Part shown: in pieces, positions 2 through 14,405 of the stretch
Layout: every line of letters begins with the position of its first letter
Position numbering within the stretch: the first letter of the stretch is position 1
Assembly: GCA_009927275.1 (NCBI GenBank)
Contig: RFNG01000131.1
Coordinates: 1 to 45,348 of the forward strand
DNA from: Sphingobacteriia bacterium
GTDB lineage: Bacteria > Bacteroidota > Bacteroidia > B-17B0 > Aurantibacillaceae
Direction: 5' to 3'
Length of the DNA: 45,348 nt
The notes under the pieces: model-generated
Told to the model about the DNA's origin: nothing
The model's input: only the letters and a program-made list of their open reading frames with translations
Databases searched by the model: none
Program-made: the position numbers and the translations under genes

Positions 2-616
2 TATACATTAGATGCGATGCGGGTTGTACAAGGAACCATGCAATTTGGACGTGAACTTTACTTTAATAAACATAACAGTTTAAAAACATCTGTATTAATA
101 ACATGGGCTAAATCGGAAGGATTAGCAAAACCCTATTTAAAAGCTCAAAATTTTAAATATACTAATAATGATACAGTTTGGAATTTGATAGATACCGATT
201 TAAAAGGAGCAGGGTTAAATTTACATTGGCGAGAATATTTTACCAGGGGACAAATGGATAAAATGCAAAACCGTTTGGGTGCCTATGCCGGACCCGAAGT
301 ATTTTTTCGATTTTGCAGAGTAGAAGCATATGGAACATTTAAGGATTCTACTATGATAAATCCTGTTAAATTTACAAAAGATGGAATAGAGGCTCCTATT
401 TATAGAAATTTATTTTTAGGATTTATAGGGTATTCGGTAGGGTATCAAAAAGCCTTAATTAATGATAATTTATTATTGGATTTGTATGTAAGTGGTGGTT
501 TCTTTTTTAGCAAATACGATGATGAACATGGTTTAACCCAAAGACGAAGATCTCCTATGGTTGATTATACCGGTCCGTATTTAAATGTAGGTATAGGTCT
601 TGGGTATCAATTTTAG
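2..616 (+). CDS. outer-membrane beta-barrel-like protein, 5'-truncated by window edge
   Basis: The reading frame is open from base 2, and the first ATG (base 17) is probably internal, so the gene begins before the window. The visible 204 codons alternate short hydrophobic/aromatic stretches with polar turns, and the protein ends in Gly-Tyr-Gln-Phe. A C-terminal aromatic residue after amphipathic strands is typical of outer-membrane beta-barrels, so I infer an outer-membrane location. No enzymatic motif is visible and no family is recognised. Its 3' end overlaps the convergent metallo-hydrolase gene by four bases, so the two genes share no terminator spacer. Confidence 0.6.
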   Translation, partial: YTLDAMRVVQGTMQFGRELYFNKHNSLKTSVLITWAKSEGLAKPYLKAQNFKYTNNDTVWNLIDTDLKGAGLNLHWREYFTRGQMDKMQNRLGAYAGPEVFFRFCRVEAYGTFKDSTMINPVKFTKDGIEAPIYRNLFLGFIGYSVGYQKALINDNLLLDLYVSGGFFFSKYDDEHGLTQRRRSPMVDYTGPYLNVGIGLGYQF

Positions 617-2013
617 TTTAATGTATAAGTTACGCCGGGTTGCGGAATTTGAACATCGCTGTACCCCAATGCCTGTAAACGCGTTTTAAATGAAGTTTTT
701 ACGGTGTCTTCGCCATGTACTAAATACAAGGTTTTAACTGTTGCTGCTTCCTGACAAGATAAATACTGAATAAGTTCTCTTGCATCGGCGTGCGCACTTA
801 ACGACATCATGCTAAATACCAAAGCCTTTACCTCAACAGGTTCTCCAAACAATTTTACTTGTGTTGCTCCGTTTAAAAGCTTTGCGCCCAATGAACTTGG
901 ACTGCAATATCCAACTATTAAAACCCCGTTTATAGCAGCTGACAATCCTTTAAATAAATGGTGTTTGATTCGGCCGGCATCTGCCATGCCAGAAGCGGAA
1001 ATTATAATGGCCGGCGCTGCTGAATCACTTAGTGCTTTTGAATCGGCTCGTTCAGTGATATAATGCAACTGATTAAAACCAAAAGGATCGGGATCTGTTT
1101 GGATATATTCCGTTAAACTGCCGTTAAAGCATTCGTGGTGCCGTCTAACAATTTCCGTAGCGTTTGATGAAAGGGGACTGTCAACAAATACGGGAACGTC
1201 AGGCCAAAGGCCCTTTGTTTTCATCCGATCCATTAAAAACACAATTTCCTGTGTGCGGCCCAGGCTAAAAGCCGGTATAAACAACTTTCCTTTATTGGTA
1301 ACGCAAACATCGTTTACGATTTTTAAAAGCTGTGCTTCCATATTTGATGCAGGTTCATGCAAACGATCGCCATAGGTGGATTCACATAAAATAAAATCTA
1401 CCGCATTAAAAGGCTGAGGGGCTTTTAGAAGCAAATCGTGATAGCGTCCAATGTCACCGGTATACAACATTCGCTTTGGTGCGGGACTTTGCCATTGCAA
1501 TTCTACAGCTGCACTACCCGTAATATGACCGTTTTCAATAAATTTAAATTTTAAATTGGCGTTTAGCGAAAACCAATTGTTATACGGAACAGATTTAAAA
1601 TATTTTAAACTTCGTTCAACATCTGTAACAGAATATAAAGGTTTAAGAAGATCTTGACCTCTGCGTTTTCGTATTTTATTAACATAACGAACATCTGCTT
1701 CTTGTATATGAGCACTGTCCAGTAAAAGTATACGACATAAATCAAGTGTGCCGGGTGTACAATACACGGGGCCTTTATAACCATTTTTAAATAAGAGGGG
1801 AATACGACCCGAGTGATCTATATGTGCATGGGATAATACAACGGCATTAAGGCGGTGGGGATTAAGTCCCAGATGCTGGTTTCGTGAAAGGGTTTCATTA
1901 CCCAATCCCTGAAACATGCCATAATCTAATATACACTCAAAACCATCTTCATCAATTACCAGATGTGCACTTCCGGTAACTGAATCCGATCCGCCAATTG
2001 ATTTAAATTTCAT
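613..2013 (-). CDS. MBL-fold/beta-CASP metallo-hydrolase (RNA-processing exonuclease family)
   Basis: The protein has 466 residues. It carries the metallo-beta-lactamase metal motif His-Ala-His-Ile-Asp-His near residues 61-66, a second His in ENGHITGSA, the Asp in YTGDIGRY, a beta-CASP insert in the middle, and a C-terminal RMMBL-type segment with SLSAHAD and LVHGE. This layout is that of the beta-CASP nucleases (CPSF73/YSH1-like), which act on RNA using two zinc ions; substrate here is unknown. It is cytosolic with no signal peptide. It lies 23 bases downstream of the thioredoxin gene on the same strand, and a TAnnTTTC element sits four bases before its ATG, so it may have its own start as well as read-through. 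Confidence 0.85.
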   Translation of the reverse strand: MKFKSIGGSDSVTGSAHLVIDEDGFECILDYGMFQGLGNETLSRNQHLGLNPHRLNAVVLSHAHIDHSGRIPLLFKNGYKGPVYCTPGTLDLCRILLLDSAHIQEADVRYVNKIRKRRGQDLLKPLYSVTDVERSLKYFKSVPYNNWFSLNANLKFKFIENGHITGSAAVELQWQSPAPKRMLYTGDIGRYHDLLLKAPQPFNAVDFILCESTYGDRLHEPASNMEAQLLKIVNDVCVTNKGKLFIPAFSLGRTQEIVFLMDRMKTKGLWPDVPVFVDSPLSSNATEIVRRHHECFNGSLTEYIQTDPDPFGFNQLHYITERADSKALSDSAAPAIIISASGMADAGRIKHHLFKGLSAAINGVLIVGYCSPSSLGAKLLNGATQVKLFGEPVEVKALVFSMMSLSAHADARELIQYLSCQEAATVKTLYLVHGEDTVKTSFKTRLQALGYSDVQIPQPGVTYTLN

Positions 2014-3404: not shown

Positions 3405-3526
3405 CAAATAAAAAATGGGGTATTTATTTGCTTTGAAAACAGAAATCCAAAAATTAAAATCAATAATATATGTTAATTTGCAAAATAGCAGATTATACCC
3501 TAATTTTATTACAATATACTGTAACT

Positions 3527-5476
3527 ATGAAACACCTCTATCTTTACTGCGCCTTACTTTTAACAGGATGGACTTTTGCTCAAACACCCCGATTAGTTTT
3601 ATACGAAGAATTTACCGGCGAAAACTGTCCGCCCTGTGCGTCTACAAACCCAGCTTTAAATGCCCTTTTGGCGTTACCAACAAATACCCCTAAAGTACAA
3701 TCTATAAAATGGCAAGTGCCCATCCCTTCGGCACCATCAAATACCTGGTCGCTATATAAAACCAATATGGCTGAAATTGACTGGCGCTGGAAATCTATTG
3801 CAAATGGCGGATATGGCTATACACCGGCAATTAATTCGGCACCATCCAGTAAAATTGATGGGCAAGAAGCAACGGTGTTTGGGGCGGCATCAGGTCATCC
3901 TGCCAATTTAAATAGTAATGTAATAGCCACAGCACAATCGTACACATCGGCATTTGCTGTTACCATGAATCGTGCATGGGATCCATCAGGCAATGCGATT
4001 ACACTAACGGTTAATATACAAGCTACAGCTAATTTTAATGCTGTTGGCAATTTGGTGTTTCGTACCGTAATGATTGAAAGGGTTATTGATTTTTCAGTAG
4101 CACCGGGTACAAATGGCGAAAAACATTTTGAGGATATTGCCATTAAATCCTTCCCCACGTTGCAATCGGGTGTTGCAATGACATCAAACTGGAGTATTGG
4201 CCAAACCCAAACGTTTACATTAAACTGTGCCATCCCATCGTATTGCCGTAAAAAAGAGGAAATAGCTTTTGTAGGCTTTATTCAGGATGATGGCAATCAG
4301 CGCGTAGCGCAATGCGTTCGGGCCGATCGTCAGCCGCTATTATACGATGCCCTTGCCCTTGCCGCAAAAATTGATCCCGTATGTTCAGCAAGCTTAAGCC
4401 CTCTGGTATATGTAAAAAACAACGGGTTAAATGCCATTACAGCCATGACCATAACACCTTACATAGATGGCACGGCCGCATCGCCCTTTACATGGACAGG
4501 AAATTTAGCGGCAGGATCAAATGCAAGTATTACCCTTGCGCCTATAACCAGTCCAACACTTAGCGGTGCACATTCGTTTTCATACCAAATTACAGCCTTA
4601 AATGCCAGTGATTTTAATCTTTCTAATAATTCCGCACGGGTATCGTTTTTAGTTGCCAACGCGTATGCTGCCGGGCCGGTTTCAGAAGGTTTTTCAGCTG
4701 TAGCCTTTCCGCCGGTTAATGGTTTTGTTGTGGTAAATACAAATGCTGGTCCAAGCTGGTCACGTGTAACCAATGCCGGAGGATTTAATTTAAGTATGCA
4801 ATCGGCTAAGTATGATTTTTATAACAATACCGTAGCTGGAGATGTAGATGAATTTTATTTACCACCGGTAGATTTATCAGGTGGAAATCCCCCCCAATTA
4901 CTTTTTGATATTGCCTATGCGCAGCGCAATGCCAACAGCAATGATAAACTGGATATAATGGCATCAAGCGATTGCGGTACTACTTGGACCAATGTGTTTT
5001 CACAGACCGGGGCCATGATGACCAATATTGCACCAGTATCCGGCAGCGCGTATGTGCCTGATGTTAACGATCCTACACATTGGAGAAACGAATTGGTAAC
5101 ATTAACCGGCTTTAATAAGTCTAATGTGCTTATTAAGTTTGTTACAACAAATGGAAACGGCAACAATCTGTATATCGATAATATTAACCTCGAACAAACC
5201 AGCCCAACAGCTGTAAGGGCTTTAAATTCGGTAGATCAATTACAGATGTTTCCAAATCCGGCATCAAGTCAGGTAAATATAGAATTTACTAACAGTTCAA
5301 AAGAGCCCGTACAGGTATATATTTCAGATGTTACCGGTAAACGGGTATGGTCAAAAGAAATGGTTTCAGATTCAAAACGTATAGAATTGCAACCTGAATT
5401 ACCCGCAGGAACCTATTTAATTCAAATAGAACGTGCAGATAGCAAATGGGTAAAATCCTTAATTATTAAACCTTAA
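3527..5476 (+). CDS. Omp28-like secreted protein A with CPPC motif and T9SS sorting domain
   Basis: Starting at the ATG at 3527 gives 649 residues with a clear signal peptide (cleavage after about residue 18, ...TFAQ). An N-terminal Omp28/thioredoxin-like domain follows, with Cys-Pro-Pro-Cys at residues 34-37. A CARDB-like linker domain lies at about 275-375, a jelly-roll (choice-of-anchor J type) domain at about 380-560, and a C-terminal T9SS type A sorting domain (MFPNPASSQVNIEF ... AGTYLIQI ... SLIIKP) fills the last 80 residues or so. I infer export through the inner membrane by Sec, then secretion or surface attachment by T9SS. The CPPC pair suggests redox or disulfide activity outside the cell, unproven. 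It is a paralog of the gene at 6230. A run of seven C lies at 4889-4895. Confidence 0.85.
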   Translation: MKHLYLYCALLLTGWTFAQTPRLVLYEEFTGENCPPCASTNPALNALLALPTNTPKVQSIKWQVPIPSAPSNTWSLYKTNMAEIDWRWKSIANGGYGYTPAINSAPSSKIDGQEATVFGAASGHPANLNSNVIATAQSYTSAFAVTMNRAWDPSGNAITLTVNIQATANFNAVGNLVFRTVMIERVIDFSVAPGTNGEKHFEDIAIKSFPTLQSGVAMTSNWSIGQTQTFTLNCAIPSYCRKKEEIAFVGFIQDDGNQRVAQCVRADRQPLLYDALALAAKIDPVCSASLSPLVYVKNNGLNAITAMTITPYIDGTAASPFTWTGNLAAGSNASITLAPITSPTLSGAHSFSYQITALNASDFNLSNNSARVSFLVANAYAAGPVSEGFSAVAFPPVNGFVVVNTNAGPSWSRVTNAGGFNLSMQSAKYDFYNNTVAGDVDEFYLPPVDLSGGNPPQLLFDIAYAQRNANSNDKLDIMASSDCGTTWTNVFSQTGAMMTNIAPVSGSAYVPDVNDPTHWRNELVTLTGFNKSNVLIKFVTTNGNGNNLYIDNINLEQTSPTAVRALNSVDQLQMFPNPASSQVNIEFTNSSKEPVQVYISDVTGKRVWSKEMVSDSKRIELQPELPAGTYLIQIERADSKWVKSLIIKP

Positions 5477-6229: not shown

Positions 6230-8167
6230 ATGACTAAAACACGTACATTACTTGTAATATTGGCGCTATCATGTACCGCCTTTGCACAAACGCCCAGGCT
6301 TTGCCTTTATGAAGAATTTACCGGTGAAAATTGTCCGCCATGCGCCGCTACAAATCCCGGTTTAAATACACTTTTGGCATCTGCTACAAATTCAACCAAA
6401 GCTGTAGCCATCAAATGGCAGGTGCCCATTCCCTCTGCGCCTTCAGCAACTTGGTCCTTATACCAAACCAACAAAGCTGATATCAATTGGAGATACAGCA
6501 CCTATGGGTATGGTATAAATTCTGCACCTTCAGGCCGCATGGATGGTAGAAACGTAACTGTATTTGGCGCGGCATCCGATCATCCGGCTAATTTAAATAA
6601 TAACGTTATTGCCACGGCACAGTCTTACACCTCGGCATTTAATGTAACAATGTCCAGAGCGTGGAATCCGGGATGTACCGCTGTAACTTTAACTGTAAAT
6701 ATACAGGCTACAGCAAATTTTAATGCCGTGGGCTCATTAGTATTTCGTACCGTTATGGTTGAACGTGTTATAGATTTTACCGTAGCGCCCGGCACCAATG
6801 GTGAAAAGCATTTTGAAGACGTAGCCATCAAAGCATTCCCTACCATTCAATCTGGAATAGCAATGGCGCCAACATGGACCGTTGGTCAATCGCAAACATT
6901 TACTTTAAACTGTCCTCTACCCAGTTATACCCGAAAAAAATCTGAAGTAGCATTTGTGGGCTTTATACAAGATGATGGAAATCGTCAGGTAGCACAAGCC
7001 TGTCGTGTTAACCCCGATCCGGTTCCTACTGATGCCATTTCGGCTTTGGGTGCTACTGTTAACGTAGCATGTTCAAATACCATTGCCCCGCAAGTATCTT
7101 TTAAAAATGAAGGTCAGGGTGCAATATCGGGTTTAACCATTAATCCTTTTGTTGATGGAATTGCCGCTGCGCCGTATACCTGGAATGGAAATTTAACCGC
7201 AGGGTCAACTACCAATATCGTTTTATCCTCCATAACCAGTCCTACAATTAGCGGTTCACATACCTTTTCATTTACATTTAGTACCAGCGCACCCAATTAT
7301 AATTTATTGGTAAATAATAACCGTACTAATTATTTTGTAGCCAATACCTATGCCGGAACACCTGTTGCAGAGGATTTTGCCTTGGCAAGCTTTCCCCCAC
7401 AAGGCTGGGCTATTATAAATGCAGACAACGGACCAACATGGTCACGAGTAACAAATGCGGGTGGTTTTAACCTTAGCATGCAGTCTGCCAAATATGATAT
7501 TTATACTAATACTAAAATTGGTGATATCGATGAATTATATTTACCGGCAAGTGATTTAAGCGGTGGCAATGCACCTGAATTAAGTTTTGATATTGCATAT
7601 GCTCAACGCACCATGTTTAACGTAGATCGCTTAGAAGTAAAACTTTCAGACGATTGTGGTGCTACATGGACCACCGTTTATTCAGCAGCAGGCCCATCGT
7701 TAACTTCTACAACACCCTACGCAGCTACAGCGTATGTACCCAGCCCAACAGACCCAACACACTGGAGAAATGAATTTATTTCATTACCAGGCTGGAATAA
7801 AAGCAATGTGATAGCTAAGTTTGTGGTTACTAATGATAACGGAAACAATATCTATATTGATAATGTTAATCTATCACAAAGTAGCCCTGTAGGTTTAACC
7901 TCTAATCAGGGTATTTTGGCGGATATGCATGTTGTTCCAAATCCCTCAAATGGAAATATGCAAATTATAGTACAAGGCCAGGCAAATCAATCATCACAGT
8001 TTGAATTACGCAATCTTTTAGGACAAGTTGTTTATTTAAAAAATGTAGATTTACAAAACGGACTAAACCGTATTACTTTAGATTTACAACATTTACCTAA
8101 AGGTGTATATACCCTAACAGGTAAAAACGCGTTAAAAGTTTCAAGCAGTAAAATCATTATTGAATAA
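6230..8167 (+). CDS. Omp28-like secreted protein B, paralog of protein A
   Basis: This 645-residue protein repeats the architecture of protein A: signal peptide ending ...AFAQ, CPPC at residues 35-38, CARDB-like segment, jelly-roll domain and a T9SS type A tail (VVPNPSNGNMQIIV ... KGVYTLTG ... SKIIIE). Long stretches are nearly identical to protein A, for example IKWQVPIPSAPS, VIATAQSYTSAF, VAPGTNGEKHFED and WSRVTNAGGFNLSMQSAKYD. The sorting tails and parts of the middle differ. The pair clearly arose by duplication. Protein B has an extra Cys at residue 25, and A has one in SYCRKK that B lacks. A terminator follows at 8187-8220. Confidence 0.85.
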   Translation: MTKTRTLLVILALSCTAFAQTPRLCLYEEFTGENCPPCAATNPGLNTLLASATNSTKAVAIKWQVPIPSAPSATWSLYQTNKADINWRYSTYGYGINSAPSGRMDGRNVTVFGAASDHPANLNNNVIATAQSYTSAFNVTMSRAWNPGCTAVTLTVNIQATANFNAVGSLVFRTVMVERVIDFTVAPGTNGEKHFEDVAIKAFPTIQSGIAMAPTWTVGQSQTFTLNCPLPSYTRKKSEVAFVGFIQDDGNRQVAQACRVNPDPVPTDAISALGATVNVACSNTIAPQVSFKNEGQGAISGLTINPFVDGIAAAPYTWNGNLTAGSTTNIVLSSITSPTISGSHTFSFTFSTSAPNYNLLVNNNRTNYFVANTYAGTPVAEDFALASFPPQGWAIINADNGPTWSRVTNAGGFNLSMQSAKYDIYTNTKIGDIDELYLPASDLSGGNAPELSFDIAYAQRTMFNVDRLEVKLSDDCGATWTTVYSAAGPSLTSTTPYAATAYVPSPTDPTHWRNEFISLPGWNKSNVIAKFVVTNDNGNNIYIDNVNLSQSSPVGLTSNQGILADMHVVPNPSNGNMQIIVQGQANQSSQFELRNLLGQVVYLKNVDLQNGLNRITLDLQHLPKGVYTLTGKNALKVSSSKIIIE

Positions 8168-10105: not shown

Positions 10106-10744
10106 TTACATATTCAATAATTGATTTAAGAATCGCATAACGTCCCGAGGTTGATTTTTTTTAGCATCGGTAAGGCTGGGCAAATACAAACTGTAAAAAT
10201 GCTGTAAATGCGCCATTTCAAGTAAGGTACTTGCCAAAGACTTTGAAAATTTATATGTAGGATGAAATATTTTTATTTCACGAGCCAATAATAAACTAAG
10301 CTCTTTAAAAGGTTTAAAAAATAGATTTTTATTAAACTGATTAACGTTGCGCGTTAAGTAAGTTTTAGAACCTTCCCACAGCACAAGTTGATAAAGGGCA
10401 TTTATATCAAAGCTGGTGTGTATTTTATGTTCTGGCAGTTCGGGGTTTAAAATGAGTTTTAATATAAATTGAATTCTATTTTTAGCTTTAGGTTCAGTTT
10501 GGCAATGGTACTGGGCAACATTGTATATATGGGTCCAATATTGATTTACAAGATAAAGCAGCATATGATGCTTGTTTTCAAAATAACGGTATACGCTGGC
10601 TTCGGTTGTTTTTATGTTTAATGCCAGTTTTTTAAACGTAAAAGCCTCAAAGCCTATAGTATTTATTAACTGAAGGGCCTTTGTGGTTATTTGCCGGCCT
10701 AATAGAGTATCCTGCGGATTTTTTAAATACAAGCGTTTTAGCAT
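10106..10744 (-). CDS. TetR/AcrR-family transcriptional regulator
   Basis: The 212-residue protein has an N-terminal TetR helix-turn-helix at about residues 18-62 (ITTKALQLINTIGFEAFTF ... TTEASVYRYFENKHHML) and an all-helical C-terminal ligand-binding part. It is divergent from the exporter genes, with only 69 bases between the two starts. That gap carries two copies of a dyad-type motif at 10767-10803, the expected arrangement for a TetR repressor controlling both itself and the exporter. The ligand is unknown. Confidence 0.88.
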   Translation of the reverse strand: MLKRLYLKNPQDTLLGRQITTKALQLINTIGFEAFTFKKLALNIKTTEASVYRYFENKHHMLLYLVNQYWTHIYNVAQYHCQTEPKAKNRIQFILKLILNPELPEHKIHTSFDINALYQLVLWEGSKTYLTRNVNQFNKNLFFKPFKELSLLLAREIKIFHPTYKFSKSLASTLLEMAHLQHFYSLYLPSLTDAKKNQPRDVMRFLNQLLNM

Positions 10745-10813: not shown

Positions 10814-13039
10814 ATGTATTTTAAAACGTTAGTAGGATGGCTCTGGAAAGAGCGTAGGGGCATACAGCGCGTTTACCTTATGGCGGCCCTACAAAGTTTA
10901 TTGTACATTGGTTTACCCCTTTGTATTCAGGGTGTTATAACGTATACCATGGCCGGTCATTTTTCGGCCTCCTTGGTTTTGCTGAGTATGGTAGCCGTTA
11001 TTTTTATAGCATTAATTAGTGTATTTAAGGTTTGGCAGTTTAATTTAAACGAATATTTACAAGAAAAGATTTTTGCTGAAACAGCTGAGCGTTTAGCTGT
11101 TTATGAAGATCTATCGGGAACCCGTAAACTAAAACTATTACAATTTTTTGAAATTTTAACCTTGCAAAAGGGAATTGGTAAGATACTGTTAGATTTTTCT
11201 GTATCCATAGTTAGCATTGGAATAGGTTTATTGATATTACCTGCTTATAGCAGTTGGTTTTTTTTACTTACGATATTACTTGCGCTAAGTTTTGTATACA
11301 TTTTGTATTATTACGGCAAACGGGCCCAGCAGGCCAACATACTGCTTTCAGAATCAAAGTACAGCATTTTAAAGCTTTTACTTTACGATTCGGCTCCCTC
11401 TGTACACGACCATTACCAAAAGTTAGATGCAGAATTAATGGATTACCTTTCGTTTCGCCAACAATACCATGGACTATTTTTAAAACAATTAAAAGGGCTG
11501 CTTACTTACAAGGTAATATTTGTAGGTTTTGTTTTGTTTTTAGGCGCCTATTTGGTTCAAATAGGGGAGCTTAACATTGGCCAGTTTGTAGCCTCTGAAA
11601 TCATTGTTCTTTTTGTAGTAAATGCTATTGAAAAACTGGTATCAAGTATTGGTATATGTTATGAAATGATAACAGCCATAATAAAGTTAAATGCGCTATT
11701 ACCGCCCGATAATCCCCTACAGCAAAATGCTGCCATAAGTTTACAATTTAACAGTCAAAAACGAATCTATCCGTATCCGTTTAAGCGTCAAAACCGCTGG
11801 TATTGGATGGGGGGGCTTATTTTGCTTTTTTTAATTTTAATTTCACCATGGACTCAAACGGTAAATGTTAGCGGATCTGTTTCCGTTTTAAATCCCGAAC
11901 GTAAACCTCAGCAAATTACTTCGCGTATAGCAGGTCGGGTTGAAAAATGGTATATCCAAGATGGTGCATTTGTTAATAAAAATGATACCATAGCCTATAT
12001 AACTGAAATTAAAGAAGAGTATCTAGATCCAAAACTTGTTCAACGTTCAGAATCTCAAATTACCTCAAAAGAAACCGCCATGGAATCGTATCAAGGCAAA
12101 ATCCGTTCAATTGATTTGCAAATTGATGCACTTAACAAAGGGTTGGTTTTAAAACGCGAACAATTACAAAATAAAACACGTCAATACATTGCCAAATTGG
12201 CCAGCGATAGTGTAGAATGGATAGCCGCGCAAAATAATTTAAAAATTACTAAAGAACAACTGGCGCGGTATGATGAATTGCTTGATAAAGGAATTGTTTC
12301 TAAAACGGAGCATGAAAATCGCAAATTAAAATTTCAGGAGGCGCTTGCCAAATCCATTTCATCAGAAAATAAAATTATTGGAGCCCGTAACGAATTACTT
12401 AATGCCAAAATAGAACAAAGTGCCATCAGTCAAGAATACAATGAAAAACTAATGAAGCTGGAATCGGATAAATTTAGCACGCTGTCAATGTATTATGATG
12501 CGGAAGGGCAATTAACAAAACTTCAAAATCAACTTAGCAATTATGCCTTACGACAACATTACTATTATGTGTTAGCGCCACAAGACGGTTATATTAATGA
12601 ATTAACTGCTAAAGGCGTTGGAGAAATTGTTAAGGAGGGCGGTATAATTTGTAAAATAACACCTAAAAATCTTGAACAGGCAGTAGAATTGTTTGTTGAC
12701 CCGGTGGATTTGCCATTAATTGCCAAAGGACAGGAACTAAGATTAATTTTTGACGGCTGGCCCAGTTTTTACTTGTCGGGATGGCCCGGCGTAAGTAACG
12801 GAACCTTTGCTGCAGAAGTTATTAGTTTTGATAAAGTAATATCTACAAAAGGTAAATTTAGAATTTTAGCACGTGCAAAAGGTACACCATGGCCAAATTC
12901 AATTCAAATTGGAGGAGGCGTTCAAGGATTTTGCTTGTTACGCAATGTGCCGTTGGTGTATGAACTTTGGCGGATAATAAACGGATTCCCTCCTGAATTT
13001 TACATTACTCCAAACGCACATGACAAGCCGCATACGTAA
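10814..13039 (+). CDS. ABC exporter membrane domain fused to HlyD-type membrane fusion protein, no ATPase domain
   Basis: The 741-residue protein joins two modules. Residues about 1-295 form a polytopic domain with the helix pattern of ABC exporter membrane domains (ending IGQFVASEIIVLFVVNAIEKLVS style helices). A further transmembrane helix lies at about 327-347. Then come a lipoyl/barrel-sandwich half (VSGSVSVLNPERKPQQI, GRVEKWYIQDG, residues 350-396), a coiled coil (about 409-582), the second lipoyl half and a beta-barrel (about 587-725). This second module is a HlyD-like periplasmic adaptor. No Walker A, signature or Walker B motif is present, so an ATPase would have to come from elsewhere or not be used. 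It overlaps the TolC gene by 20 bases. A G7 run lies at 11809-11815. Likely role: efflux or secretion; substrate unknown. Confidence 0.8.
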   Translation: MYFKTLVGWLWKERRGIQRVYLMAALQSLLYIGLPLCIQGVITYTMAGHFSASLVLLSMVAVIFIALISVFKVWQFNLNEYLQEKIFAETAERLAVYEDLSGTRKLKLLQFFEILTLQKGIGKILLDFSVSIVSIGIGLLILPAYSSWFFLLTILLALSFVYILYYYGKRAQQANILLSESKYSILKLLLYDSAPSVHDHYQKLDAELMDYLSFRQQYHGLFLKQLKGLLTYKVIFVGFVLFLGAYLVQIGELNIGQFVASEIIVLFVVNAIEKLVSSIGICYEMITAIIKLNALLPPDNPLQQNAAISLQFNSQKRIYPYPFKRQNRWYWMGGLILLFLILISPWTQTVNVSGSVSVLNPERKPQQITSRIAGRVEKWYIQDGAFVNKNDTIAYITEIKEEYLDPKLVQRSESQITSKETAMESYQGKIRSIDLQIDALNKGLVLKREQLQNKTRQYIAKLASDSVEWIAAQNNLKITKEQLARYDELLDKGIVSKTEHENRKLKFQEALAKSISSENKIIGARNELLNAKIEQSAISQEYNEKLMKLESDKFSTLSMYYDAEGQLTKLQNQLSNYALRQHYYYVLAPQDGYINELTAKGVGEIVKEGGIICKITPKNLEQAVELFVDPVDLPLIAKGQELRLIFDGWPSFYLSGWPGVSNGTFAAEVISFDKVISTKGKFRILARAKGTPWPNSIQIGGGVQGFCLLRNVPLVYELWRIINGFPPEFYITPNAHDKPHT

Positions 13040-14405
13040 CATTACAGGAATACTTGTTCTAAGCTTCAACGCTCTTTTGGCACAAACGGCTCCGGTATCT
13101 TTTAATGCCTTTATGGCCCTATTAGAAAATCATCCACGTAATGCAGTGTCGCAACAATGGCAGCAAATGGCACATTCTATTTTAATATCGGGACGGGGAC
13201 AATTTGATCCGGTTTTATCTGGAGAAACCGAACAAAAGCAATGGATGCAAAAAACAAGTTACCAATGGATACGTACAGAAGCAAAGCAAAATATTTTTGC
13301 AGGACATTCGTTAAAGGCGGGATTTGATTATGGACAGGGCTCATTTGTAAATCCAGAATTTCAAACCCCCGCATTAGGTATTCCATATGCGGGAATTGAA
13401 CTGGCCTTAGGCCAAGGACTCATTATGGATAAACGAAGAGCAGACTATTTAAAATCAAAAGCGTATGGTAATTTATATACCCTTTCGGCGCAGCAAGAAA
13501 AAAACGAACTTTTAAATTCTGCTAGCCAAACCTATGTCCAATGGCTAAATTTTAAAGCGCAGCTGGATATAATGTATTATTTTAATAAACTTGCCCAAGA
13601 CCGTCTCTCTGCATTAAAACACGCTCAGCAAACAGGCGAAAAATCAGTAATGGATACAGTTGAAGCCAGTATTTATTTACAAGGACGCACCCTTGAGGTT
13701 CAGGACGCACAATTGGCTTTAAACCAAATTCAAAATTATTTAAGCACTTTTATTTGGAGCTCAACAGGATTGCTTATTGACAGTACGTTATTAGCTAATA
13801 ATACGGATGTTTTACAAGGTGTTTTACAACAAGCCATGCGAATAAAATCAAATGTAAGCACAGACAGTTTAAATGCCCCTGAAATTAATCGTTACGCTGT
13901 AAAATCAAAGTTGCTGGATATTGAACTGCAATACCGAAAAGAGTTTTTAAAACCTACGTTAAATGTTAGATACAACGTTTTAAGTTCAGGAATTCAAGCA
14001 TTTAATGCTCAGCAATTAAAGTGGTCTGCACAACTAGCATTTCCATTATTTTTTCGAACGCCCCTGGGAGAATACCGGGTAGTAAAAAGCCAATTGCAAC
14101 AAAACATACTAGAAGGCACTCAAAAACGAGCCGAATGGCTTGCTAAAATTAATGCCCTTGATTTTAAATTAAAACGTATGGCCAATCAAATAATTACAGC
14201 ACAACAGGCCAGCACATTAAGTAAAACTTTATTAGAAGCTGAACAAATAAAATTTCAAAACGGCGAAGGCACCTTGTTTTTACTAAATAGCCGCGAAAAT
14301 AAATGGCTAGAAAATCAACTTAAACTCACCGAGTTACAGGCTAAATGGCTTCAGGTTTACTTTGAATGGGTTTATGCCCACGGACATTTAAATTATAAGT
14401 TGTAA
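13020..14405 (+). CDS. TolC-family outer-membrane efflux channel
   Basis: The 461-residue protein has a signal peptide (ITGILVLSFNALLAQ, about residues 7-21), then the long helical hairpins separated by short beta strands that mark TolC/OEP proteins, e.g. EKNELLNSASQTYVQWLNFK and ALKHAQQTGEKSVMDT. It should form the outer-membrane exit duct for the fused adaptor encoded just upstream; the 20-base overlap supports coupled translation and fixed stoichiometry. No separate ATPase gene follows. Confidence 0.88.
   Translation: MTSRIRNITGILVLSFNALLAQTAPVSFNAFMALLENHPRNAVSQQWQQMAHSILISGRGQFDPVLSGETEQKQWMQKTSYQWIRTEAKQNIFAGHSLKAGFDYGQGSFVNPEFQTPALGIPYAGIELALGQGLIMDKRRADYLKSKAYGNLYTLSAQQEKNELLNSASQTYVQWLNFKAQLDIMYYFNKLAQDRLSALKHAQQTGEKSVMDTVEASIYLQGRTLEVQDAQLALNQIQNYLSTFIWSSTGLLIDSTLLANNTDVLQGVLQQAMRIKSNVSTDSLNAPEINRYAVKSKLLDIELQYRKEFLKPTLNVRYNVLSSGIQAFNAQQLKWSAQLAFPLFFRTPLGEYRVVKSQLQQNILEGTQKRAEWLAKINALDFKLKRMANQIITAQQASTLSKTLLEAEQIKFQNGEGTLFLLNSRENKWLENQLKLTELQAKWLQVYFEWVYAHGHLNYKL

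Follow-up and report, generated by a model that had tools for sequence, protein, structure and literature searches.

How could a tripartite exporter operate if its inner-membrane component had the membrane domain of an ATP-driven pump, joined in one chain to the adaptor, and no ATPase? This question is raised by a gene in a 45,348-nucleotide stretch from a Sphingobacteriia bacterium of the Bacteroidota (contig RFNG01000131.1, assembly GCA_009927275.1), hereafter the window. Its 741-residue product combines a six-helix transmembrane domain (TMD) of the ATP-binding cassette (ABC) exporter type with an HlyD-like adaptor, and a gene for a TolC-type channel follows. The initial annotation, made from the letters alone, described this arrangement and proposed that the membrane part either had become a structural anchor or recruits an ATPase encoded elsewhere. 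That description holds, whereas the two proposed roles fit less well than an exporter independent of ATP. We lean slightly towards a reading of the sequences in which the fusion gene would provide both the inner-membrane pump and the adaptor of a TolC-type tripartite exporter working without ATP hydrolysis.

The chain runs from the six-helix TMD through a short linker and the adaptor's membrane helix to a full HlyD-type adaptor, with the following parts (ORF, open reading frame):

10814..13039, plus strand: TMD-HlyD fusion gene, 741 aa (ORF list, Pfam, AlphaFold)
10853..11698, plus strand: ABC-exporter-type TMD, residues about 14-295 (AlphaFold helices; ComA and PCAT1 by profile and fold)
11699..11785, plus strand: linker, residues 296-324, at the site of the nucleotide-binding domain (NBD) in unfused relatives (low-confidence coil, predicted cytosolic)
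11786..11842, plus strand: the adaptor's own transmembrane helix, residues 325-343 (AlphaFold; corresponds to the hydrophobic N-terminal segment in unfused adaptors)
11843..13036, plus strand: HlyD-type adaptor with a long helical hairpin (residues 406-579) and beta domains (Pfam HlyD_3; EmrA by profile; EmrA and HlyD by fold)

Pfam recognises HlyD_3 in the protein with 41 bits against a cut-off of 22.2, and the NCBIfam model type_I_hlyD gives 57 bits, under its cut-off of 208.65. ABC_membrane reaches 15.4 bits, likewise under its cut-off of 28; among relatives it scores above the cut-off in L058, L059, L069 and L128 and below it in L065. The AlphaFold models, which are monomeric and of moderate confidence (predicted local distance difference test, pLDDT, 64.6 and predicted template modelling score, pTM, 0.38 for the full chain; pLDDT 68.7 and pTM 0.62 for residues 1-351 alone), show exporter-like long helices up to about residue 295 and an adaptor with helices of 86 and 83 residues. 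The proposal that the membrane part folds like an ABC exporter is borne out at this level of confidence, as the best Foldseek matches of the TMD model are ComA (E 7.2e-5) and PCAT1 (E 5.3e-4), with template modelling scores by query of just 0.48 and 0.43 and a root-mean-square deviation (rmsd) above 10; in the best 50 rows, full ABC exporters match with VIA Z 14.0-19.2 and rmsd 3.4-5.8 over 273-301 residues. In a profile built from nine relatives, positions 6-330 match ComA at 5.5e-8 and PCAT1 at about 5e-5 to 9e-5, while the adaptor part matches EmrA at 1.4e-7; EmrA and HlyD are also among the structural matches of the adaptor model.

A Pfam scan of the 741 residues returned no ATPase family, and a pattern scan found neither Walker A nor the signature in the fusion protein or in 29 further fused proteins, in agreement with the reported absence of ATPase motifs. 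The structure prediction that had been proposed as a check also rules out a hidden NBD, as residues 296-324 are the sole free stretch and far too short to hold one. The fusion protein is an exporter membrane domain joined to an adaptor without an ATPase domain. Measured against the definition of a type IV ABC exporter, it has the six-helix TMD (in a model of moderate confidence) and lacks the NBD with its Walker A, LSGGQ, Walker B Glu and H-loop; measured against that of a type I secretion or tripartite system, it has the HlyD-type adaptor, and a TolC-type channel in the operon, but its chain includes no ATPase and the locus has no conserved one, either as a subunit or as a domain.

The search for the same fusion, likewise proposed at the outset, found it well beyond the window. 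Among 36 genomes of the same genus it is present in 16, while four have the unfused genes and 15 gave no match; a 17th genome (G002) holds a piece at a contig start with the adaptor part only. In a class-wide adaptor search at least 11 genomes, that of the window included, have the fused form among the matches listed, spread over six family codes. The fusion also occurs in eight metagenome assemblies titled Bacteroidota, Bacteroidetes or Bacteroidia (L035-L042), three of which are the same contigs as G011, G021 and G023, and one fused case sits inside a 5.65 Mb contig. The adaptor tree and the TMD trees each place the 30 aligned fused proteins in a single clade (Shimodaira-Hasegawa-like approximate likelihood ratio test, SH-aLRT, 100); these rows exclude L055 and L057, contig-cut pieces of fused-type genes, the former marked as unfused on the HlyD tree, and L056, a contig-end fragment. 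Because the 30 proteins form one clade and TolC comes next in all 29 other fused loci, the fusion is not an artefact. The membrane domain is under purifying selection; in nine close fused pairs its nonsynonymous divergence (dN) is 0.10-0.20 and its synonymous divergence (dS) is saturated, so that no dN/dS ratio is obtainable. The genome of the window (G000) comprises 2.29 Mb at 99.3% completeness and is smaller than most genomes of the genus. In another genome, G012, the fused gene (L049) is accompanied, at the end of another contig (L056), by a 52-residue match to the protein start at 60% identity, which may be a second copy or an assembly break.

The ATPase domain has been lost, and the unfused relatives indicate what preceded its loss. 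An adaptor match was found in 194 of 395 genomes of the class, and from the matches listed in the same-genus and class-wide searches 64 unfused loci (61 aligned) were chosen, a selection of all matches. Their operons consist of ABC, HlyD and TolC genes, and in the 63 loci that show both genes the adaptor gene is immediately preceded by one of exporter type; one of these, L128, is TMD-only and was dropped from the NBD counts as shorter than 500 aa, together with the contig-cut L080 and L130. Among the 61 unfused exporters counted, LSGGQ occurs in none, the Walker-B D-E pair in three, the H-loop His in three, a strict Walker A in 46 and the full motif set in none. The TMD is better conserved than the NBD in all 1830 pairs of the 61 (mean pairwise identities for 60 of these relatives: TMD 50.3, NBD 30.5, HlyD 48.4). 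For orthologues of L003, a canonical exporter of the window's genome, the corresponding values are 52.7 for the TMD and 70.3 for the NBD, the TMD being ahead in only 9 of 406 pairs; two of these 29 rows are shorter than 550 aa, the signature pattern is present in 28 and the other three motifs in all 29. The four canonical exporters of the window's genome in the same alignment have all motifs (L002, L003) or are off at single positions (L001, L004). Since in the unfused relatives the catalytic motifs are missing and the NBD is less conserved than the TMD, the NBD had, so far as motifs tell, ceased hydrolysing ATP before the domain was lost. A large Bacteroidota family (L058-L127, L129, L180-L184) resembles ABC exporters and probably lacks the capacity to hydrolyse ATP.

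The decayed NBDs have a pattern of their own, the Walker-B DE positions being mostly E then D and Asn standing for the H-loop His in 31 of 61, and they may still bind ATP as pseudo-ATPases. Eleven of the relatives (L059, L063, L064, L068, L069, L070, L120, L121, L123, L126 and L129) bear an N-terminal extension of about 150 residues, the place that C39 or C39-like domains occupy in other exporters; Pfam found nothing above cut-off in the extensions of L059 and L069. Such extensions were trimmed from the tree alignments and from the comparisons with other classes and with TMD-only genes.

Different degrees of decay are found across the phylum. Among 14 relatives from its other classes, nine retain the Walker-B DE and seven of those nine also the H-loop His; the signature of the nine is eroded, coming closest to canonical in L191 and L193, and five others (L180-L184) have dead NBDs as in the class members. 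At the other end, seven genomes (family codes f41, f49 and f68) have an exporter gene of 332-339 aa that encodes a TMD only, with separate HlyD and TolC genes. On a TMD tree built with insertions dropped from the TMD-only and other-class rows, these seven form one clade separate from the fused clade, so that the absence of the NBD, complete in the fusion and in the free-standing TMDs, needs two changes on that tree. With the roots chosen, the series suggests that the signature was lost before the catalytic Glu and the H-loop His, then Walker A in places, and finally the entire domain. A graded series within the genus of the window, with the unfused L059, L063, L064 and L068, which have lost Walker A, as direct ancestors, was considered and rejected, since the trees place them elsewhere, so that theirs is a separate decay.

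The membrane domain that remains has a set of charged residues of its own, some of whose codons lie in the window as follows (TM6, transmembrane helix 6):

11051..11053, plus strand: E80 codon (Glu in 29 of 29 fused rows with the column and 61 of 61 unfused)
11597..11599, plus strand: E262 codon, TM6 (Glu in 30 of 30 fused, 61 of 61 unfused and 0 of 4 canonical exporters)
11630..11635, plus strand: E273-K274 codons, TM6 (alignment)
11663..11665, plus strand: E284 codon, TM6, Asp in most relatives (alignment)

K119, K182, E262, K274, K291 and D/E284 are present in every row of the 30 fused and 61 unfused TMDs, and E80 wherever its column is; D/E127, E273, K123 and K233 are found in all fused and at least 90% of unfused rows. 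As aligned, none of the four canonical exporters of the window's genome has E80, K119, K123, K182, K233, E262, E273, K274 or D/E284. E262, E273 and E284 are spaced 11 residues apart and would lie roughly on one face of TM6.

The loops that would face an NBD have changed. R97, E106, R110, E191 and R194, conserved there in unfused relatives, are each retained by no more than 12% of 24 fused rows and by none of the other six. Cytosolic loop 1 has 44 residues and cytosolic loop 2 has 40, each in 59 of 61 unfused rows; in the window they have 37 and 32, the medians of the fused rows are 40 and 33, and one or both are shortened in 24 of 30. Of the positions conserved in unfused relatives, 24 fused rows keep 80% in TM1-2, 64% in TM3-4 and 84% in TM5-6, whereas the shares for the loop tips are 33% and 47%. 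As the loop residues are lost and the loops are shorter, these alignments are most simply read as showing a fused TMD without a docking NBD.

Taken together in a mechanism, an ATP-driven exporter of the C39/type I secretion lineage would have been the ancestor, and its TMD, after the stepwise decay of the NBD described above, would still alternate between inward- and outward-open states. That transport would proceed independently of ATP hydrolysis is, on this sequence evidence, rather likely. An ion gradient, most likely of protons, might drive it by way of acidic residues, among them E80, D127, E262, E273 and E284, as in SbmA, a source of energy that we propose tentatively. The fusion sets the ratio of TMD to adaptor at 1:1; according to passages of a study of the HlyB-HlyD system, three HlyB dimers there assemble with six HlyD (PMC11026475), the same ratio, so that a 1:1 fusion would be compatible with a working complex. 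The TMD is under selection for something other than ATP coupling and, in our view, other than anchoring: the adaptor supplies a membrane helix itself, and a free TMD persists in the TMD-only operons.

Several observations weigh against an ATP-independent, ion-driven pump. The window's TMD is the longest branch within the fused clade on the TMD tree and departs at 14 of 76 positions conserved in fused proteins, and the mean identity among fused proteins is 52.9% for the TMD against 62.9% for the adaptor, so that some relaxation is present. As to the acidic residues, position 127 holds Glu in one of the four canonical exporters, ComA aligns Glu opposite E273 (and Asn opposite E262), and E262 is present in all nine relatives with near-complete catalytic motifs; such residues are therefore older than the loss of the NBD and alone no sign of proton coupling. 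As to the loops, six fused proteins (L038, L039, L040, L052, L054 and L079), a sister group to the remaining fused rows on the TMD tree, have them at near-full length (44, or 41 in L040, whose start is cut, and 40) and retain 59% and 49% of the loop-tip positions. The seven TMD-only genes all keep R97, E106 and R110 and have full-length loops (44; 40-43) without an NBD, so the role of these residues may go beyond NBD docking and the argument from docking residues is weakened.

The lower conservation of the fused TMD, its reduced loops and loop residues, and the ABC_membrane score below cut-off in the window would also be expected of a vestige or a structural anchor, with the adaptor serving another inner-membrane pump and the TMD holding it in the membrane or spacing six adaptors. 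A candidate for such a pump exists in 3 of 37 loci, where a cluster of the AcrB-type resistance-nodulation-division (RND) pump is found (L043, L047 and a contig-cut piece in L049). Nevertheless, this pump is no constant neighbour, and the adaptor already possesses its own membrane helix. Moreover, all 30 fused rows retain K119, K123, K182, K233, E262, E273, K274 and K291, which is unexpected for an anchor, and seven operons retain an unfused, NBD-less TMD that anchors nothing. The anchor suggested by the initial annotation is thus weakened, and we consider it rather improbable. Simple decay of the gene, or an assembly error, for which the long branch of the window's TMD could be cited, is extremely improbable, given a frame open in many genomes and six family codes, purifying selection in the relatives and a conserved operon.

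The other suggestion, an NBD supplied in trans from elsewhere in the genome, has a precedent in YddA-type systems, in which, according to passages of one study, TMDs and NBDs are encoded by separate genes, which in one genome belong to different operons (PMC13316013). The full loops and several loop residues of the TMD-only genes would suit such docking, and one of the seven TMD-only stretches (L174) has, two genes beyond TolC, a gene for an ABC ATPase of 282 aa; the other six have no NBD-matching ORF. In the fused proteins, however, the loop residues are lost, and the orphan ATPase expected to co-occur with the fusion did not emerge from the locus search: among 858 ORFs of at least 60 aa in 32 fused loci, NBDs occur in one protein only, a 611-aa product with two NBDs on the opposite strand (L052). 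An audit confined to the window's own genome, which has 35 PF00005 matches, scanned 14 standalone NBDs out of 19 listed ORFs; LptB and SufC pass curated cut-offs, others resemble, below cut-off, LolD/MacB, GldA, FtsE, Wzt/TagH or importer ATPases, and two (L168, L173) had no match at the thresholds used. The relatives' own NBDs, moreover, are dead already. Recruitment of an ATPase is unlikely, and distinctly more so than anchoring.

The ATP-independent exporter that we favour can be placed among known systems. It resembles HlyB-HlyD-TolC and the C39-peptidase exporters ComA and PCAT1 in its TMD profile and fold (ComA, PCAT1), its adaptor (EmrA, HlyD) and the TolC gene in the operon; it differs from them in lacking an NBD, in uniting TMD and adaptor in one chain and in having unfused relatives whose NBDs are without catalytic motifs. 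Partly degenerate NBD motifs recall the heterodimeric ABC exporters with one degenerate site, TmrAB and TM287/288; unlike these, the unfused relatives have a single exporter gene in each operon among the loci read, and their single NBD mostly lacks signature, catalytic Glu and His together. Such an NBD could presumably complete no consensus site.

A closer parallel in outline is SbmA/BacA. These SbmA-like peptide transporters (SLiPTs) are proposed, in passages of the study already cited, to stem from full ABC transporters after loss of the NBD and coupling helices, SbmA being a proton-driven transporter with an ABC-type TMD and a glutamate ladder, some glutamates of which are already present in the NBD-bearing YddA (PMC13316013). 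The fusion family likewise has an NBD-less ABC-exporter TMD and conserved acidic residues, some of them also in NBD-bearing relatives, although this set is its own and is likened to the ladder in outline, not position by position. Of the 30 fused rows, 24 have shortened loops at the place of the coupling helices, whereas six, like the seven TMD-only rows, have loops of full or nearly full length. Unlike SbmA/BacA, the fusion is joined to an adaptor with TolC, presumably for export, and its nearest exporters are ComA and PCAT1, not the YddA type. The intermediates also differ, being split TMD and NBD genes and the partial ladder of YddA in the SbmA lineage, as far as those passages describe it (PMC13316013), and decayed NBDs in the fusion family. 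PF05992, the SbmA family, has no match in the window's genome at E 0.1, with an E. coli control detected, and SbmA is not among the listed structural-search matches, an absence without test value.

Two genes flank the fusion gene in the window:

13020..14405, plus strand: TolC-type outer-membrane channel (outer-membrane efflux protein, OEP; Pfam), overlapping the fusion gene by 20 bases
10106..10744, minus strand: divergent TetR-type regulator upstream of the fusion gene (PF00440)

The TetR gene and a neighbouring lipoprotein gene had been described as making a compact locus with the exporter genes. This stands for TetR, which recurs near the fusion gene in 23 of the 29 other fused loci, and not for the lipoprotein, which recurs in none. 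Clusters common to more than 8 of 37 loci are solely the transporter, TolC, TetR and a CutA-like protein. Annotated clusters in 3-8 of the 37 comprise a LysR regulator, isocitrate dehydrogenase, DUF6671, an amidohydrolase, an Sbt_1 transporter, surface proteins and the AcrB-type RND pump, none of which is a constant neighbour. The RND cluster lies within a few kb of the fused gene (L043:384-3479(+), L047:760-3954(-) and the contig-cut L049:2-376(-)), and Pfam backs its identity for L043.

The CutA1-like small protein, encoded near the fusion gene in 13 of the 29 other fused loci, is a weak relative of CutA1 of about 103 aa found in fused and unfused loci (L035:4915-5223(+), L044:6285-6581(-), L059:4172-4492(+) and 11 others); it scores 23.2 bits against a cut-off of 22.4 in L035 and is under the cut-off in L044, and the window has no such gene. 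It may be a regulator of the exporter. A gene of the Sbt_1 type (sodium-dependent bicarbonate transporter) is present in 5 of 37 loci (L036:4848-5801(+), L053:7116-8072(+), L044, L058 and L065), and in L036 it immediately precedes the fused gene, while in L053 it has the CutA-like gene on one side and the fused gene on the other. SbtA-type transporters are under the control of PII-like proteins, so the CutA-like protein might instead belong to the Sbt_1 transporter. Elsewhere in the window, 3470-5476 and 6230-8167 encode a related pair of proteins, 668 and 645 aa long, each with a C-terminal sorting domain (Por_Secre_tail) and separated by a 245-aa ORF with a domain of that type below threshold, and 613-2013(-) encodes a metallo-beta-lactamase/beta-CASP/RMMBL protein.

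A narrow literature search of titles and abstract openings on fusions, dead-NBD HlyD systems, a CutA link or SbmA named no such family, and no passage describing such a fusion was found in the portions considered of a review of tripartite systems (PMC8277102). As far as we know, the change from an ATP-driven to an ion-driven transporter has been argued mainly from SbmA, for which the intermediates reported in the passages cited are partial, namely split YddA genes and a partial glutamate ladder (PMC13316013). The Bacteroidota, by comparison, have a common export family that seems to hold several stages of NBD decay and two NBD-less end points, and with several stages present in living proteins the order of events becomes testable. 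Extant genomes could even record how a primary, ATP-driven exporter became a secondary, ion-driven one, reaching the NBD-less end twice and convergently with SbmA, with an ABC-fold tripartite exporter spanning two membranes and driven by an ion gradient as the product, a wider reading that we advance with still more reserve than the ion drive itself. For the Bacteroidota at large, the family suggests that many genes annotated as ABC exporters are incapable of ATP hydrolysis, which bears on how their efflux and secretion operons are to be read.

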